This document shows, in pieces, positions 4,503 to 32,884 of a DNA stretch of 32,884 nucleotides. The translations under genes were made by a program, and so were the position numbers. The notes beneath the pieces were generated by a model. It ran no database searches and was not told the origin of the DNA. It saw only the letters and a program-made list of their open reading frames with translations. Position 1 is the stretch's first letter, and the number at the start of each line of letters is the position of its first letter. The DNA comes from Magnetococcales bacterium (GTDB taxonomy: Bacteria > Pseudomonadota > Magnetococcia > Magnetococcales > UBA8363), in assembly GCA_015660855.1 (NCBI GenBank), contig JACSDG010000041.1, forward strand, positions 1 to 32,884, written 5' to 3'.

Positions 4503-4565
4503 GGTGTTCACTCATAAGAAAAAACATTTAGAAAAACGCACCGGGATAAGGGGCGCACGAAAAAA

Positions 4566-4629
4566 CAAAATCCTGGGGGAAATCCCACAGACCCCTTTTT
4601 TCTTTTAATAATTTTATTTAATGTCAACA
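4566..4629. repeat. Single-arm copy of dispersed hairpin repeat, likely bidirectional terminator
   Basis: 59 of 64 bases match the right arm of the inverted-repeat element at 32544-32607, in the same orientation. A hairpin, CTGGGGG-AAAT-CCCACAG with one mismatch, is followed on the plus strand by ACCCCTTTTTTCTTTT. On the minus strand it is followed by a T-rich run. It ends five bases before the ccoQ stop codon, so on the minus strand it could end the ccoGHQ transcript. Confidence 0.75.
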
Positions 4630-4633
4630 CGCA

Positions 4634-4783
4634 TTAATCTTCATCCAAAATTTTTTCCCCTTCCTTTTCAAAACGTTGTCGATTTCCAGGCCAAAAAGCC
4701 CAGATGACAATAGCCAGGAACAATAAAAAGAACAATATTAACGAAAATTCCTTCGACAGCAGCACCATTTTTTCAAAATCCAT
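4634..4783 (-). CDS. ccoQ: cbb3-type cytochrome c oxidase subunit CcoQ (FixQ)
   Basis: This 49-residue protein has the CcoQ layout. A short N-terminus is followed by KEFSLILFFLLFLAIVIWAF, one membrane helix, and then a basic patch (RQRFEKEGE) and an acidic end, LDED. CcoQ stabilises the interaction of CcoP with the CcoNO core. The ATG at 4783 follows AGGGAGA with good spacing and lies 4 bases after the ccoH stop, so it is co-transcribed and probably coupled with ccoH. The location is unusual, because ccoQ normally sits between ccoO and ccoP. Here it is the last gene of the oppositely transcribed ccoG-ccoH operon. It is shorter than most gene-calling cut-offs and is easily missed inside a longer frame reaching 4999. 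Confidence 0.85.
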   Translation of the reverse strand: MDFEKMVLLSKEFSLILFFLLFLAIVIWAFWPGNRQRFEKEGEKILDED

Positions 4784-8353: not shown

Positions 8354-9070
8354 GTGAATCACGCAACTATCGAAAAAAGCATACCGCTGATGGCCATCCT
8401 CACCCTGGTGGTCGTCCTCATAGGCGGATTGGTGGAAATCGTGCCGCTCTTCTACCTTAAAAGTACCGTCGTTGAAGTCAAAGGGATGCGTCCCTACACC
8501 CCATTGGAACTTAAAGGGCGTGACATCTACCTCAAGGAAGGTTGCTACAATTGTCACTCCCAGATGATTCGTCCTTTCCGTGACGAAGCCCTGCGTTATG
8601 GTCATTACTCTCTGGCTGCCGAAAGCATGTATGACCATCCGTTTCAATGGGGTTCAAAGCGGACGGGGCCGGATCTGGCGCGTGTCGGTGGTAAATATTC
8701 CAACGCATGGCATCAGGCCCACATGCGCCGACCCCAGGATGTCGCCCCTGAATCGGTTATGCCTCCCTATCCCTGGCTGGAAAAGACCGAACTGGACTAT
8801 GCCGATATCGCCGACCGTATGTCCGCTCTGACCAAGGTGGGGGTTCCCTATACCCAGGAACAAATCACCAACGCCATCACTGATCTCAAGGCGCAGGCAA
8901 TCTTTCAGAGTGACGACAAAAATTTGAAAAAACGCTATGGCGACCGCATGGCCCTTGATGATTTTGACGGCATCCCGGATAAAATCACCGAATTGGACGC
9001 CTTGGTGGCTTATCTGCAAATGTTGGGTACATTGGTGGATTTTTCCACGCCCCAACCCCAGACCCGTTAA
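8354..9070 (+). CDS. ccoO: cbb3-type cytochrome c oxidase subunit II CcoO (monohaem cytochrome c)
   Basis: 238 residues. An N-terminal membrane anchor (about 10-32) is followed by a periplasmic cytochrome c domain. The haem site is CYNCH (Cys64, Cys67, His68) in the family string EGCYNCHSQMIRPF. The axial Met is likely Met136 in SVMPPYPW. CcoO passes electrons from CcoP to the haem b of CcoN. The start is a GTG at 8354 with AAGGAGA seven bases upstream; no ATG lies nearby in frame. Its last ten bases lie inside the left arm of the 80-bp inverted repeat, but the protein end looks normal. Confidence 0.96.
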   Translation: MNHATIEKSIPLMAILTLVVVLIGGLVEIVPLFYLKSTVVEVKGMRPYTPLELKGRDIYLKEGCYNCHSQMIRPFRDEALRYGHYSLAAESMYDHPFQWGSKRTGPDLARVGGKYSNAWHQAHMRRPQDVAPESVMPPYPWLEKTELDYADIADRMSALTKVGVPYTQEQITNAITDLKAQAIFQSDDKNLKKRYGDRMALDDFDGIPDKITELDALVAYLQMLGTLVDFSTPQPQTR

Positions 9071-9369
9071 GATCCGAGCATTCGCCCGTACAACAAGGAG
9101 ACCCTTTCATGTCAGAAGAAGGCAAAGTGGAAACCACGGGGCACCAGTGGGATGATAACGAGGGATACCCGCTCAAGGAGTTCAATAATCCCCTGCCTCG
9201 GTGGTGGCTGTATTCCTTTTACGCAACAATCGTCTGGTCAGTCGTTTACTGGGTGTTTTATCCGACTTGGCCCATGGTTACCGACTATACCCGTGGTTTC
9301 CACTTTGCCTTCTTCTGACATGAAAGGGTCTCCTTGTTGTACGGGCGAATGCTCGGATCTTAACGGGTC
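9061..9369. repeat. Perfect 80-bp inverted repeat at the start of ccoP
   Basis: Arm 9061-9140 covers the end of ccoO, the ccoO-ccoP gap with its ribosome site, and the first ccoP codons. It is repeated exactly, in reverse complement, at 9290-9369. The 149-bp spacer (9141-9289) encodes the CcoP N-terminus and membrane helix. I compared the arms base by base and found no mismatch; the match ends at 9060/9370 and 9141/9289. The right arm contains an in-frame stop (TGA at 9316-9318). Such an identical copy is either very recent or an assembly or amplification artefact. Confidence 0.97.
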
Positions 9370-12738: not shown

Positions 12739-13449
12739 ATGTTTCCAACGCCCATCGACTTGTGGTTAACCTTTATAACCGCTTTGTTGGCCAGTGGCCA
12801 TTGTATTGGCATGTGCGGCGGCATGGTGACCGCTTTGGGGTTTCACCGCACTGCCGCCGGTGTCGCTTCCCCCCCTCGGGCAACCGACTTCATGGTTCGG
12901 CATTTTTTTTATGGAATCAGCCGCCTGTCCACCTATCTGCTTTTGGGAGCACTCAGCGGTTGGTTGGGTTCCATGGCCCCCGCCGTGGAACGCTCCCCGT
13001 TGCTCACAGCTTTACCCTTGTGGGTGGCGGGGATAGTGATGATCGTCATGGGTATGGAAACCTGGGGCATTCGCGGATTGCAGTTTGGCATGGCCAAAGG
13101 TTGGATGGCACGCCTGGAAAACAAAACCACAGCGGCGAACCATTGGCAAAAACCTCTCGTATTGGGCATTCTCACCGGGCTTTTGCCTTGTGGCATGCAC
13201 TGGGCTTTTCAAGCCAAGGCTTTCGCGACGGGATCGGTTTGGGGGGGATTGTTGATTCTGCTGGCCTTTGGGCTTGGCACCCTGCCAGCCATGTTGGGGT
13301 TGGGTTGGATCATTGTCCTCGTTGGCCCCAAGGTTCGGAAAGTCTTGCAGCAGGTAGCGGCTATTTTTGTCGTGGGGATGGGGGGAATGATTTTGGTCAA
13401 AGGATTTCAGAAGGCGGGGTTGATGGAATTGAGTGGTCATGTTCACTGA
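12739..13449 (+). CDS. TauE/SafE- or DsbD-like membrane protein of cbb3 clusters
   Basis: A 236-residue polytopic protein with about six helices. It carries the family signature GHCIGMCGG near residue 20 and a second conserved segment, TGLLPCGMHW, in the middle. This pairing of MCGG and LLPCG is typical of the COG2836 group (annotated sulfite exporter TauE/SafE, related to DsbD transmembrane domains). Genes of this group often accompany ccoGHIS, and a role in metal or thiol handling during oxidase assembly is inferred, not shown. The ATG at 12739 has AGGA nine bases upstream. An earlier in-frame ATG at 12679 would overlap the divergent ccoI start. The 58-bp gap between the genes must hold both promoters. 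Confidence 0.88.
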   Translation: MFPTPIDLWLTFITALLASGHCIGMCGGMVTALGFHRTAAGVASPPRATDFMVRHFFYGISRLSTYLLLGALSGWLGSMAPAVERSPLLTALPLWVAGIVMIVMGMETWGIRGLQFGMAKGWMARLENKTTAANHWQKPLVLGILTGLLPCGMHWAFQAKAFATGSVWGGLLILLAFGLGTLPAMLGLGWIIVLVGPKVRKVLQQVAAIFVVGMGGMILVKGFQKAGLMELSGHVH

Positions 13450-13478
13450 GAAAAAATAGCCCTGTCAAAGGTCACCCA

Positions 13479-13507
13479 TTGACATTGATCCTGGCTTCTG
13501 TTTTATT
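13479..13507 (+). promoter_or_regulatory. Sigma-70-type promoter of the tRNA gene
   Basis: A perfect -35 TTGACA (13479-13484), a 17-base spacer and TTTATT (4 of 6 to the -10 consensus, 13502-13507) end 14 bases before the tRNA. The position fits a start site a few bases upstream of the mature 5' end. Confidence 0.6.
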
Positions 13508-13521
13508 TGCGGATCGGTTCA

Positions 13522-13608
13522 GCCCAGATGGCGGAATTGGTAGACGCGCTAGATTCAGGGTCTAGTGGCCTTACGGTCGTGGAAGTTCGAGTCTTCTTCT
13601 GGGCACCA
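13522..13608 (+). tRNA. tRNA-Leu (anticodon CAG)
   Basis: The 7-bp acceptor stem GCCCAGA / TCTGGGC, discriminator A and encoded CCA define the ends. The anticodon stem CTAGA/TCTAG closes a loop TTCAGGG, giving anticodon CAG, which reads CUG. The long variable arm (GGCCTTACGGTCG region) is that of a class II leucine tRNA, and the T arm contains GTTCGAG. The accessory island begins just downstream, as is common at tRNA integration sites. I found no repeat of the tRNA 3' end downstream. Confidence 0.97.
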
Positions 13609-13690
13609 TTTAAAAATATCACCTCTCCCACTGTCCGTTACCATTCCCGGGAGACGGTGTGTCCGTTCCCCCTGCAGCAAAAAACATGAG

Positions 13691-13719
13691 GCCCTTCGGG
13701 CAAAAACCAAAACCCTGGG
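13691..13719. repeat. Short dispersed hairpin repeat
   Basis: GCCC-TTC-GGGC (13691-13701) is followed by an A-rich linker and CCCTGGG. A related unit lies inverted at 27403-27444. The AAAACCCTGGG part also occurs in the larger repeats at 4566 and 32544. It lies between the tRNA and the HEPN gene and may help end tRNA transcription. Confidence 0.45.
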
Positions 13720-13797
13720 TGCTCTCGCCCCCACCCCCACAGGCCGCTGGATCTTTTTGTCCAAATTGTCAAAAAAAGAACCTTGGGGGGCTGGGGT

Positions 13798-17631: not shown

Positions 17632-17993
17632 GTGATTATCCTTGTTGGGGGTTGGGGCGCAGGCCTGTCTGGCCCCCCTTTGCAAGTTGCCTGAAATTAA
17701 CCCTGATCATCCTGATGATCCCGCAAAACCGACGAAGCACAGGCGTCCACACCCGTCCTCCTGCCGACACCTCCACGGGGCGAACACCAGCCTCCCCCGT
17801 ATCCTACGAAAGGACGCCGCAAAAGAAAATGAAAAATCCAAACGTCCGCATTTTTTTTGGGGCCAACTCTGCCCGCTCCAATCAAAAACAGCAACGCAAT
17901 AAATTAATTTTTTTCCACCCCCTCCCCCACCTCGTTTTTTTTCCCTTACCTTAACTCTTGCCCTGGAGGGATGTTTGCTGTAATGAATGCGGC
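17632..17993. other. Divergent intergenic region, no gene seen
   Basis: This gap separates the leftward carboxylase gene from rightward murA. It holds AT-rich runs at 17895-17945 that may include the murA promoter. I see no RNA gene or strong hairpin. A 41-codon frame at 17971-18093 starts directly after GGAGGG and overlaps the murA start out of frame; it is reported as a finding. Confidence 0.4.
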
Positions 17994-19253
17994 ATGGATA
18001 AAATTCTGGTCCGTGGTGGCCGCCCCCTCAGTGGGTCGATTTCCATCAGTGGCGCAAAAAACGCCACCCTCCCAGCCCTGGCAGCCAGCCTGCTGACAAC
18101 GGGCCACGTCCACCTGTCCAACATCCCGCACCTCAAGGATGTCACCACCATGGTGGAGCTTCTTGGCCAGCATGGTTCCGCCATCACCATCGACGATAAA
18201 CTCGGCGTTGAAATCGACAATACCAACATAACCAGCTTCAGGGCACCCTACGACCTGGTTCGCACCATGCGCGCCTCCATCCTGGTCATGGGTCCGCTCC
18301 TCGCACGCTATGGCCAAACCGAAATCTCCCTCCCCGGCGGTTGCGCCATCGGTTCCCGCCCCGTCAACCTTCACATCCAGGGTTTGCGGGCCATGGGGGC
18401 TGAAATCGAACTCGGTGGCGGTTATATCCGCGCCCGCGCCAAACGCCTCAAAGGGACGCGCTTCACCTTCGATCCCGTCACCGTCACCGGCACCGAAAAC
18501 CTTCTCATGGCCGCCACCCTGGCCAAAGGACAAACCATTCTCGAAAATGCCGCACGCGAACCCGAGGTCATCGACCTAGCCCGATGCCTCATCCGCATGG
18601 GAGCCAAAATCCATGGGGTCGGAACCAGCACCCTCGTCATCGACGGCGTCGATCACCTCCAGGGCTGCCATCACGCCATCATTCCAGACCGCATCGAAAC
18701 CGCCACCTTCATGATCGCCGCCGTCCTAACCCGTGGCGATGTCCTCCTGACCAACACCTGCGCCGAGGATCTGCGCAACCCCATCGACAAACTGATCCAA
18801 ATGGGGGCCACCATCGATGAACTCGAAGGCAACTGCATCCGCATCCGATGCCATGGCGATATCAACGCCATTGATCTGGAAACCAGTCCCTACCCCGGTT
18901 TCCCTACCGACATCCAAGCGCAAATGCTGGTCCTCAACAGCCTTGCCAAAGGGACGGGTATCGTCACGGAAACCGTCTTTGAAAATCGTTTCATGCACGT
19001 CTCGGAACTGCAACGCATGGGGGCTGATATTCTCATCCGTGGCAACACCGCCATCGTGCGCGGATCCACGCGCCTCATCGGTGCCCCAGTCATGGCTACC
19101 GACCTGCGCGCCTCCGCATCCTTGGTCCTAGCCGGTCTCGCCGCCGAAGGAGAAACCCTCATCTCCAGGGTCTACCATATCGACCGTGGCTACGAACGCA
19201 TCGAAGAAAAACTCAGGGCCCTGGATGCCGATATCCAGAGGGTCAGCGGTTGA
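17994..19253 (+). CDS. murA: UDP-N-acetylglucosamine 1-carboxyvinyltransferase MurA
   Basis: First committed enzyme of peptidoglycan synthesis; it adds enolpyruvate from PEP to UDP-GlcNAc in the cytoplasm and is the target of fosfomycin. The protein is 419 residues with the inside-out alpha/beta barrel repeats. Lys22 in SGAKNA and catalytic Cys117 in [11 protein letters not shown] are present, so it should be fosfomycin-sensitive (no Cys-to-Asp change). I chose the ATG at 17994 because family members begin MDKILVRGG; the ribosome site there is poor. A TTG at 17958 is in frame. hisD follows with no gap, so murA leads the his cluster, an arrangement seen in several proteobacteria. Confidence 0.95.
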
Positions 19254-30115: not shown

Positions 30116-32242
30116 TCATTTTCCACGGCTCCCCCGCACCTCAAAGTTGGCTTGGTCCACCGTTTTGCCCGCTTCGTCCAACAATTCCAGGCGGTGGCGG
30201 CCCGCCACGGGTGCCCAACCTTCATCCAGGTTGATTTCCACGCCGTCGAGACGCCAACGGTAGCCCGGATGTGGCGGTTCCATGCGAAAGAAAACCCGTT
30301 CCAGAGGCGGGGGAATGTCGGGATCCAAAGCCATGACAACTCCCGAGACGGGATAAAGGATGTGTCCCCGCTGTTTCCGATTATGTATCCGCTCCACCCG
30401 TTCCATTTCGGTTCCAGACAGATACCATTCCCACCGTTCGCCTTCTTCGCCACCCGAAAATAGTGTTTTCTTTTTGACCACCCCCGGTGGCACCTGGGGT
30501 TTTTGTTCGTTTCCTCCCAGATAGGTCATCACCTCCCGCCAAACCGGGGCCGCCCCCGCTATCCCGGAAACATCGTGCATCGATTCCCCATCAAAGTTTC
30601 CCACCCATACCCCCACCGTCCACGCCTGGCTGAAACCAACACACCAATTGTCACGCATCCCTTTGGAGGTTCCTGTTTTGACTGCACTCCAAAAGGGCAG
30701 GTTCAGGGGGTTGTCCAGGCCAAAGGTTACAGCCCTGGCCAGGGGATCCGACAAAATATCGTTGATAATGAAGGTGGCCTCGGCCCCCATGACCTTATTT
30801 TTGGCAGTCCCATCTTCGCCCGGAATCAGACGCAAAGGGGAAAAAACACCGCCATTGGCCAGGGTGCGGTAGGCGTTGGTCAATTGCCACAGACTGACAT
30901 CCACCGAGCCCAAAGCCAGAGACGGACCGTAGGTGTCACCCCCTTGGGAAACCCCGGAAAAACCCAGGCGGCGCAGGTGAAATACCACCGGATCCAACCC
31001 GGCCAACAACAATGCCTTGATCGTCGGTACATTCAGCGATGCGGCCAGGGCGGTGCGGACACTGACCCATCCTTTGAAATCTTCTTCATAGTTGCGTGGC
31101 ACGTATAACCCCCTTGGGGTGGGAATGTTCAAAGGGGCATCGTTGAGGAGGGACGCGGCAGTCAACAGGCGTTTTTCCAGTACCCATTCATAAAGGAAGG
31201 GTTTTAAAGTGGAACCGGCCTGACGTAAAGCCTGGATTCCATCGACCTGGCTGGAGGACTCGGCGCTGGGGGTGTTGCCGACATAGGCCAAAACTTCGCC
31301 ACTCTCGTTGGCCAGCACCAACACCGCCCCGTTATGAACGTTTTGTCCCTCCAGTTGGGCCAGCTGTTCCGCCAGAGTTTCCCGGATAAAACGTTGCAGG
31401 GCAGCATCCAGGGTGGTGTGAACGATGCCTCCCCTGGTCAACAATCGCCGCGCCAACTGGGGGGCATCCGCCCGTGTCGGTGCGATCCATCTCCCCCCCG
31501 CAATATTTTTTTCAATATTTTTTTGCAGCTCTTCGCAGGTCAGTTCTGGTGCGATCCGTATTGCCAATCGGCACGCCCTTGCGAGTATTTTTTCCGCATT
31601 GGCGTTGGGAGAACGCAACAAGGCGGCAAGGACAACCCCATCGCCACGGGTCAATCCACCCACTCCCTTGCCAAACAAACCCCGCGCCGCAGTGCCAATT
31701 CCCTCCCACTCGCCCCGGAAAGTGACCCGATTGAGGTAGGCCTCCAACAGTTCATCCTTGCTCCAACCCGCCTCCAATCCCCAGGCAGAGCGCATTTGTT
31801 CCCACTTGTGGGCCAAAGATCGCCTTTTTCCCCGAGATCCCGACGGTTTTTTTTCCAGGAGACCGGCCAGTTGCATGGTGATGGTCGAGGCTCCCCGATG
31901 CCCGCTCCCCGTCAACCAACCCCAAAAACCTGCCGCCAACCCCCACCCATCCACCCCGCCATGCTTCCGGAAACGACGATCTTCAGCCGCCACCAACACT
32001 GCCAGGGCGGTTGGGGAAATCTCGTTCAAGGAAATCCAGGTCAGCCGCCGCCCTTGCAGCGACACCCGCATTTCGTGCAGTTCTTCTCCCTTTCGGTCCA
32101 GCAGCAACCCATCGCTGGCCTGCCAGGCATTTTTGACATCGGCGAAAGTGGGCACAGGCGCGCCCCAACCCCAGAGCAGCCATCCCCCCAGAGATGCAAG
32201 CCCCAGCATCACCAATCCCCACCTTGCCTGGCGTCGTCCCAT
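30116..32242 (-). CDS. pbpC: Penicillin-binding protein 1C (bifunctional glycosyltransferase/transpeptidase)
   Basis: 708 residues. An N-terminal membrane anchor (about 8-28) is followed by a GT51 glycosyltransferase domain with catalytic Glu87 in AAEDRRFRKHGG and GASTITMQLA at 118-127. The transpeptidase domain has Ser344-x-x-Lys347 in GSTLKPF, SLN at 402-404 and KTGTS from Lys522. A beta-rich C-terminal BiPBP_C domain contains GYRWRLDG and LELLDEAGKTV. PbpC is a class A-like peptidoglycan synthase often encoded beside an alpha-2-macroglobulin gene; none is seen within the window. The start at 32242 has a poor ribosome site. All catalytic residues are intact. Confidence 0.95.
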   Translation of the reverse strand: MGRRQARWGLVMLGLASLGGWLLWGWGAPVPTFADVKNAWQASDGLLLDRKGEELHEMRVSLQGRRLTWISLNEISPTALAVLVAAEDRRFRKHGGVDGWGLAAGFWGWLTGSGHRGASTITMQLAGLLEKKPSGSRGKRRSLAHKWEQMRSAWGLEAGWSKDELLEAYLNRVTFRGEWEGIGTAARGLFGKGVGGLTRGDGVVLAALLRSPNANAEKILARACRLAIRIAPELTCEELQKNIEKNIAGGRWIAPTRADAPQLARRLLTRGGIVHTTLDAALQRFIRETLAEQLAQLEGQNVHNGAVLVLANESGEVLAYVGNTPSAESSSQVDGIQALRQAGSTLKPFLYEWVLEKRLLTAASLLNDAPLNIPTPRGLYVPRNYEEDFKGWVSVRTALAASLNVPTIKALLLAGLDPVVFHLRRLGFSGVSQGGDTYGPSLALGSVDVSLWQLTNAYRTLANGGVFSPLRLIPGEDGTAKNKVMGAEATFIINDILSDPLARAVTFGLDNPLNLPFWSAVKTGTSKGMRDNWCVGFSQAWTVGVWVGNFDGESMHDVSGIAGAAPVWREVMTYLGGNEQKPQVPPGVVKKKTLFSGGEEGERWEWYLSGTEMERVERIHNRKQRGHILYPVSGVVMALDPDIPPPLERVFFRMEPPHPGYRWRLDGVEINLDEGWAPVAGRHRLELLDEAGKTVDQANFEVRGSRGK

Positions 32243-32309
32243 GAGATTTTGTGCTGGTTTGGCGTGAATATGACGGGCCTGCCATCCGATGCGTAGAAAT
32301 TATGGCGTA

Positions 32310-32605
32310 TTGACATTCAATAATCTCCCACCCCTTGGAAAATTATTGAAAGAAAAAAGGGGCCTGGGGGATTGCCCCCCAGGGTTTTGACTTTGTTTTT
32401 GAATTTAAATAAAAAGCTTCATACTTTGCCTTTGACTTTGCTTTTTATATTTATGCGAAAACATTTAAAGCTTTATGTTTTTTATTTAAAGTCAGAATAA
32501 AAAATTTAAACTTTTTATTTAAGGTCAAAAACAAATTCAAAAGCAAAACCCTGGGGGCAATCCCCCAGGCCCCTTTTTTCTTTTAATAATTTTATTGAAT
32601 GTCAA
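32310..32605. repeat. 296-bp inverted-repeat element with TTGACATTCAATAA ends
   Basis: The outer 14 bases are perfect inverted copies (TTGACATTCAATAA at 32310-32323, its complement at 32592-32605). Each arm carries the hairpin CCTGGGGG / CCCCCAGG (32363-32383 and 32550-32569), a C4T6CT4-type tract and an AT-rich inner part (to about 32416 and from about 32511) that also pair. The left arm has a short extra segment near 32324-32340. The right arm recurs alone at 4566-4629. No gene is encoded. It fills the space between pbpC and the coiled-coil gene and could also end transcription from either side. Confidence 0.82.
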
Positions 32606-32618
32606 CAGGCCCTAAGGA

Positions 32619-32884
32619 TCAGAGCAGCTTTACCAGTGCCGCCACGACCGCCACCGATGCGGCCATCATGCCGCCAAGGCGCAGGGTCAGATTGTGCGTG
32701 AGCCGGAGTTCCATTTCCTTCATGTCACGCTTGAGTCCTGTTTCCATTTCCTTCATGTCACGCTTGAGTCCTGTTTCCATTTCCTTCATGTCACGCCTTA
32801 CGACTTCGATGTCGCGCTTGAGCCCTGTTTCCATTTCCTTCATATCACGCTTGAGTCCTGTTTCCATTTCCTTCATGTCGCGCC
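32619..32884 (-). CDS. Partial coiled-coil repeat protein with C-terminal membrane helix
   Basis: The gene continues beyond the right edge, so its start is not seen. The visible 87 or so residues contain the undecapeptide MKEMETGLKRD in four or more near-identical copies, with one variant unit (IEVVRRD). A linker, ELRLTHNLTLRLGG, follows, then one hydrophobic segment, MMAASVAVVAALVKLL, at the very end. The 33-bp DNA repeats are almost identical, pointing to recent expansion. The layout, a coiled coil followed by a C-terminal anchor, resembles DUF1640-type proteins and similar tail-anchored coiled coils. The function is unknown. Confidence 0.75.
   Translation of the reverse strand, partial: RDMKEMETGLKRDMKEMETGLKRDIEVVRRDMKEMETGLKRDMKEMETGLKRDMKEMELRLTHNLTLRLGGMMAASVAVVAALVKLL

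Follow-up and report, generated by a model that had tools for sequence, protein, structure and literature searches.

The repeat at positions 32301–32614 of the window, the whole 32,884-nucleotide stretch of Magnetococcales DNA that was analysed, was best explained as a MITE that is moved at TA by an IS5-family transposase and whose palindromic interior is not tied to the IS5-type ends, as it also occurs with IS66- and ISAs1-type ends (probability of about 0.7). The own genome of the window (G000) comprised 4.5 Mb in 238 contigs, and all genomes used were multi-contig drafts.

Overall architecture of the element

The boundaries of the 314-bp element were set by end motifs on both sides and by comparison with genomic copies. 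The element was slightly larger than the interval of the initial annotation, extending about 9 bp beyond it at either end, and was flanked by terminal inverted repeats of about 24 bp with TA at each edge (32301–32302 and 32613–32614). The left terminal repeat, TATGGCGTATTGACATTCAATAAT (32301–32324, plus strand), had two mismatches to the search motif, and the right terminal repeat (32591–32614), which read TAGGGCCTGTTGACATTCAATAAA on the minus strand, had one. The perfect 14-bp inverted ends described earlier, TTGACATTCAATAA at 32310–32323 and 32592–32605, were reproduced exactly. In the family, these class A (IS5-type) ends read about TAGGGC(G/C)TGTTGACATTC(A/G)ATAAT.

A short C-rich spacer (32325–32338, plus strand), recognised in the sequence and by comparison with other copies by eye, was present on the left side only. 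The left arm (32339–32395, plus strand) was composed of an A-rich run, GGGG, the hairpin CCTGGGGGATTGCCCCCCAGG, and then GTTTTGACTTTG; on the minus strand it formed a hairpin followed by CCCCTTTTTT, directed out of the element. The right arm (32536–32593, minus strand) was an inverted copy of the left arm, with its hairpin and CCCCTTTTTT pointing outward on the plus strand. The two arms corresponded to inverted repeat I3 and to terminator-like sites, that of the right arm at 32550–32569. The AT-rich centre between them (32396–32535) was an imperfect palindrome that contained inverted repeats I4 and I6. The nested hairpins that had been proposed were confirmed, as the strand folded into one nested hairpin with an energy of −137.6 kcal/mol, compared with a shuffle mean of −62.2 (z = −14; none of 100 shuffles was equally good). 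The element was also without coding capacity, as none of the listed ORFs of at least 80 aa lay inside the 314 bp, and no Rfam family scored above its threshold at the element region.

The window also contained a truncated relative at 4561–4636 (minus strand), found by BLAST and motif search, which consisted only of the right arm and the right terminal repeat (4613–4636, three mismatches). The initial annotation had described a single arm at 4566–4629; its identity of 59 of 64 bases to 32544–32607 was exact, but the copy was a right-end remnant, with the terminal repeat in addition to the arm.

The window copy was located 4 bp past the stop of an 85-aa frame (minus strand, no Pfam match) and 58 bp from a penicillin-binding protein gene on the minus strand (Transgly, Transpeptidase, and BiPBP_C), before which it lay. 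The repeated stretch of the 85-aa frame was encoded by tandem 33-nt repeats (32689–32884) that were cut by the contig end. Elsewhere in the window, a perfect 80-nt inverted repeat (9061–9140 and 9290–9369) with 149 nt between its arms coincided with the start of a CcoP-like cytochrome c frame; either a chimera of the assembly or a true inverted duplication may account for it.

Copy number and distribution

The end motif TAGGGCNTGTTGACATTNNATNAT was found at 66 sites (39 + 27) and the arm hairpin AAAGGGGYCTGGGGGATTGCCCCCAG at 59 sites (32 + 27) in the own genome with up to three mismatches, and the reversed-pattern controls for both gave none. A family of only two copies, or one without common ends, had been named as the outcome that would speak against a mobile element, and neither was observed. 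A BLAST search with the originally noted interval, in which 40 of 372 candidates were scored, gave at least 84 rows; many of these were a single place matched on both strands.

With up to one mismatch, the arm core was present in all eight genomes of the genus, at 48 sites in the own genome and 12 to 305 sites in the other seven, and in none of 40 further genomes searched within the order. With a looser BLAST search, 22 of 100 genomes had matches; besides the eight of the genus, these comprised 14 further members of the order. Named genomes were scanned for exact matches, and the 80 listed, of at least 115 stretches, all came from Magnetococcales MAGs.

Elements with class A ends and no core were also present, with lengths of 64 bp and 68 bp (contigs C160 and C211). 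The 64-bp element (L160:2001–2064; C160:61219–61282 of the own genome) was located directly behind a frame that resembles the repeat-rich one of the window, and by eye, TA together with the first G of the element formed the stop codon TAG of that frame.

IS5-type ends and the probable partner transposase

G006, a genome of the same genus, contained an IS5-family element of 850 bp that was complete (L175:1501–2350); it had class A ends, with CTAG at either edge. Its two overlapping frames matched the two halves of NF033580. Two contig-end fragments of an insertion sequence with class A ends, whose protein stretches overlapped, were present in the own genome (C128:1–658 and C68:11337–11613). PF13340 had one match each in G000 and G002, and was not found in the drafts of G004, G005, or G007. 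Class A ends were abundant in G004 (49 sites) and G005 (58 sites), yet neither draft gave a PF13340 match, so that no IS5-type partner was found there; the insertion sequence may be missing from the drafts, or the elements may no longer be mobile.

Some IS5 elements target CTAG. A search for a target-site duplication gave TA at both edges in 7 of the 10 copies that had a class A end on either side, including the window copy, although a duplication of two bases is weak evidence alone. One pair of filled and empty sites was found. A class A element in G004 was located between two tandem reading frames, which resemble cdsA and dxr, and in G000 only a short gap lay between these frames. When the G004 flanks were joined with one TA, they aligned nearly without gaps to G000, which had CATG where G004 had CTAG. 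At the sequence level, this pair fits insertion at TA. Other two-genome alignments (window 13350–13760, window 17780–18060, L032/L262, and L171/L222) were ambiguous and were left out.

The penicillin-binding protein gene beside the window copy had a match in five of the seven same-genus genomes, one of them by a short stretch. An arm-type repeat was present just upstream of this gene in G002, but the DNA beyond it was different. The corresponding loci of G004, G006, and G007 had no arm, and that of G003 had one near its end. The empty site of the window copy was not found among these loci, and because upstream synteny was not established, none is claimed.

The initial annotation of the element as MITE-like is in agreement with the common ends, the many copies, the TA edges, and the IS5-family insertion sequence with the same ends. 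The element was assigned as a MITE with IS5-family ends because its ends match those of the same-genus IS5 element and of the own-genome fragments, and because the site pair fits insertion at TA. A transposase with matching ends had been expected to be REP-associated; the one found with matching ends was of the IS5 family and not of the REP-associated type. The idea of a REP doublet was not supported, as G000 had just two Y1_Tnp matches, both broken remnants with internal stop codons that covered only part of the profile. A RAYT/REP origin was therefore rejected, no intact RAYT being present in the own genome. Judged from sequence, the element is probably moved by an IS5-type transposase that is encoded elsewhere.

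Other end classes around the same arms

Further end motifs emerged from 10-mers that recurred next to the arms, namely class D (IS66-type, GTAACCGTTCAG), class B (ISAs1-type, CAGGGCAATCGCATTTGAAAT), and class C (TTCTACTTTGTCACATTC). IS66 elements commonly begin with GTAA and generate duplications of 8 bp. Among 15 class D end pairs less than 700 bp apart, not all of which hold an arm, the 8-bp duplication was perfect in three, matched at seven of eight bases in two, and at five or fewer in ten. Perfect 8-bp duplications were located at L215, L223, and L311, and also at L237, which the 15-pair search had missed. A 531-aa IS66-family transposase (NF033517) was encoded between class D-like ends in G002 (L348:689–2471). 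This was the only IS66 element found between such ends, which differed from the motif and had no target duplication (1/8); a second full-length IS66 (L343) was without such ends. Class D end sites numbered 264 in G000 (reversed control, 2) and were far commoner there than class A ends. Of four that were read, three adjoined a different hairpin, GCGGGGGTCCGGGGGG, and one had no obvious hairpin.

Class B ends flanked an ISAs1-family insertion sequence in G005 (L354; 374 aa, NF033564) with a 10/10 duplication. The arm-bearing class B elements L067, L322, and L234 had duplications of 9/9, 9/10, and 8/10, respectively, so that the duplication length was specific to the end type. In the own genome PF13808 gave no match, though L067 lies there. 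In G001 and G006, class C ends enclosed the same arms, but the centre was a different one (L316:3334–3612 and L402–L406).

The arms of paired copies were located with nhmmer. The 77 paired copies had class A ends on both sides in 10 cases, class D ends on both sides in 7, nothing recognised in 23, and an end on one side only or a mixture in 37, and in a displaced-flank control the motifs were present in 2 of 143 cases. A change common to both arms of the window copy prompted a test of whether the paired arms evolve in concert, for which 73 of the 77 pairs were used (four with N were dropped). The 18 shared rare variants compared with a permutation mean of 10 (maximum 27) and the nearest-neighbour p value was 0.74, and concerted evolution was not supported.

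Other hairpin repeats were also observed. Positions 942–1013 of the window contained another palindromic repeat (CGTCATCCCCGCGAAAGCGG...), and a similar hairpin was located between class D ends in L152. Many single arms of the own genome adjoined other hairpin repeats, for example GGGGGCGAAGCCCCC and TGCCTGAAGGGCA, and this suggests a larger repertoire of hairpin modules.

Interiors compared with ends

When copies with different ends were compared, the interiors were well matched. The interiors of L221 (class A) and L247 (decayed class D ends, no duplication), apparently from one genome, were identical at 207 of 220 aligned bases, and those of L214 (class A) and L237 (class D, perfect duplication), from two genomes, at 239 of 253. 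The interiors were thus 94% alike between IS5-type and IS66-type ends, and outside the arms these copies were unrelated. The common V0 arm hairpin (n = 247) was located beside ends of class A (72), D (28), B (17), C (15), two classes (7), or none (108), and the rare V1 arm (n = 12) beside class A (3), class D (4), or none (5).

The genealogy of the interiors did not agree with the end type. The tree input comprised 54 of the 77 pairs, without N and of 180–340 bp, labelled 18 A, 16 D, 12 none, and 8 mixed; only the 34 A and D rows entered the main tree, for which an end on one side was sufficient as a label (up to four mismatches for A and three for D). The maximum-likelihood tree of these 34 interiors had 10 end-type changes, at least six of which were forced by well-supported branches. 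Its labels were no more clustered than shuffled ones (shuffle mean 11.7; 108 of 500 shuffles as low), and a single clade of D-ended copies was rejected with a p-AU of 2.6e-5. A strict tree of two-ended copies (8 A and 9 D), which included one extra unlabelled row and one row with a long branch, had five changes, two of them forced, with a p-AU of 1.1e-5.

Alternative explanations and gene context

The same pattern would result if the palindromic core were itself mobile and entered core-less MITEs of several families at their spacers, perhaps in the form of a single-strand hairpin. The core-less 64-bp and 68-bp elements fit this explanation, the outer border of the core is similar in A- and D-ended copies, and arms and class A ends vary independently between genomes (94 arm sites and no class A end match in G007; 177 and 7 in G002). 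However, no clean empty site for the core alone was found in the two-genome alignments, the remnant state of RAYT-type transposases in the own genome argues against it, and the core-less forms could have arisen by deletion between the TTATTGAA repeats that lie at the base of the hairpin. A mobile core is somewhat unlikely.

An ordinary IS5-family MITE, of which the other-ended copies arose by insertion of one MITE into another with later loss of the inner ends, is unlikely. Nesting does occur: a class A left end lies immediately within the class B ends of L322, the class B ends of L067 enclose an apparent decayed class A end, and in L316 class C surrounds D-like and A-like sequence. In the aligned D-ended copies, however, homology to A-ended copies ends at the arm border with no inner A end, and the perfect 8-bp duplications of several D-ended copies also argue against nesting.

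The initial annotation had further suggested that the family may spread as portable terminators located at gene 3′ ends. Four terminator-like sites were present in 31900–32884, compared with 1.3 in shuffles, and each arm had an outward hairpin and then CCCCTTTTTT, but CCCC was located between the stem and the T run, and the folds of single arms were only 1 to 2 standard deviations below shuffles (z about −1 to −2). On these features, terminator activity of the arms is plausible. For the gene context, 224 arm clusters were pooled over genomes with genes taken from simple ORF calls, and 117 at a locus edge and 4 far from genes were left out. The 103 clusters with both neighbours called were in 66 tandem, 29 convergent, and 8 divergent gaps, compared with 215, 72, and 93, respectively, for de-duplicated control gaps (n = 380). 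Divergent gaps were depleted when pooled (p = 1.1e-4), but neither the convergent excess (p = 0.055) nor the divergent depletion in the own genome alone (p = 0.29) was significant. Promoter avoidance explains the divergent depletion equally well as terminator use does. That selection keeps the family as portable terminators, rather than its being a parasite, would agree with the two outward hairpins and the pooled depletion; it is quite unlikely in view of the intervening CCCC, the modest single-arm folds, the p values above, and the insertion in G004 that separates two tandem genes.

Joining of interiors to wrong ends in short-read repeat assembly is very improbable: many contigs of these drafts end within copies, but perfect duplications on both sides mean that the flanks belong together, the interiors differ by scattered changes, the V1 arm adjoins ends of both class A and class D at a distance that should fit one short read (read length assumed), and genomes from different records agree.

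Comparison with known elements

REP and BIME elements, which are associated with RAYT, are palindromic intergenic units that occur as singles and inverted pairs. The present family differs in its IS5-type ends and target sites, and RAYT is present in its own genome only as remnants. As far as their published descriptions extend, the nearest known kinds are RUP, BOX, SPRITE, Correia, and TIME elements (PMC3049150, PMC2229807, PMC4133298). RUP of Streptococcus pneumoniae is described as a 107-bp element with IS630-Spn1-like ends and proposed movement in trans; like the present family, it is a short non-coding repeat with ends that resemble those of a resident insertion sequence (PMC3049150), whereas the present family has IS5-family ends and an interior common to other-ended elements. 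SPRITE, also of S. pneumoniae, resembles a Rho-independent terminator in its build and is enriched away from upstream regions, but in that account no pneumococcal insertion sequence with similar ends was found for it, whereas the hairpin of the present family sits within IS-type terminal repeats (PMC3049150). Correia/NEMIS and BOX are MITE-like repeats, BOX being built of modules and Correia elements occurring with and without an internal stretch; in these accounts, no such family is described with the ends of several transposase families around one interior (PMC3049150, PMC2229807). TIMEs, the Tn3-derived miniature elements, are non-autonomous and yield mosaic elements as well, but, compared by description, have Tn3-type ends (PMC4133298). 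No report of one interior between the ends of several transposase families was found among open-licence PMC titles and abstract openings, or in the descriptions given by PMC10969869, PMC3049150, and PMC2229807.

Proposed mechanism and implications

For a MITE with IS5-family ends and an interior that is not bound to them, the two-frame-type IS5-family transposase (NF033580) would recognise the ends of about 24 bp and insert the element at TA, often CTAG, by movement in trans. Whichever transposase recognises the ends would move the element, so that the same interior would also be carried inside IS66-type ends with 8-bp duplications, and the arms inside ISAs1-type ends with duplications of 9–10 bp. 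The interior would have been captured at least once per end type and exchanged thereafter. Recombination within the shared palindrome, by gene conversion or template switching, is the preferred route by which interiors may have swapped end types. Deletion between the short repeats at the hairpin base would give the core-less 64-bp and 68-bp forms, and the outward hairpins may lessen the impact that an insertion has.

Bacterial MITEs are usually pictured as the relics of one insertion sequence, bound to one transposase. A more tentative reading, to which we give slightly less than an even chance, is that the two-arm hairpin cassette is a selfish unit that repeatedly acquired ends from three or more unrelated transposase families (IS5, IS66, ISAs1, and perhaps the source of class C) and thereby became a multi-vector non-autonomous element with about 300 arm sites in one genome of the genus. 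If this reading is true, any of several transposases can move the hairpin cassette. The uncoupling of interior genealogy from end type would allow a parasitic sequence to persist after any single insertion sequence had been lost, and the family would offer a natural system for asking how new MITEs arise and whether terminator-like hairpins aid their spread.
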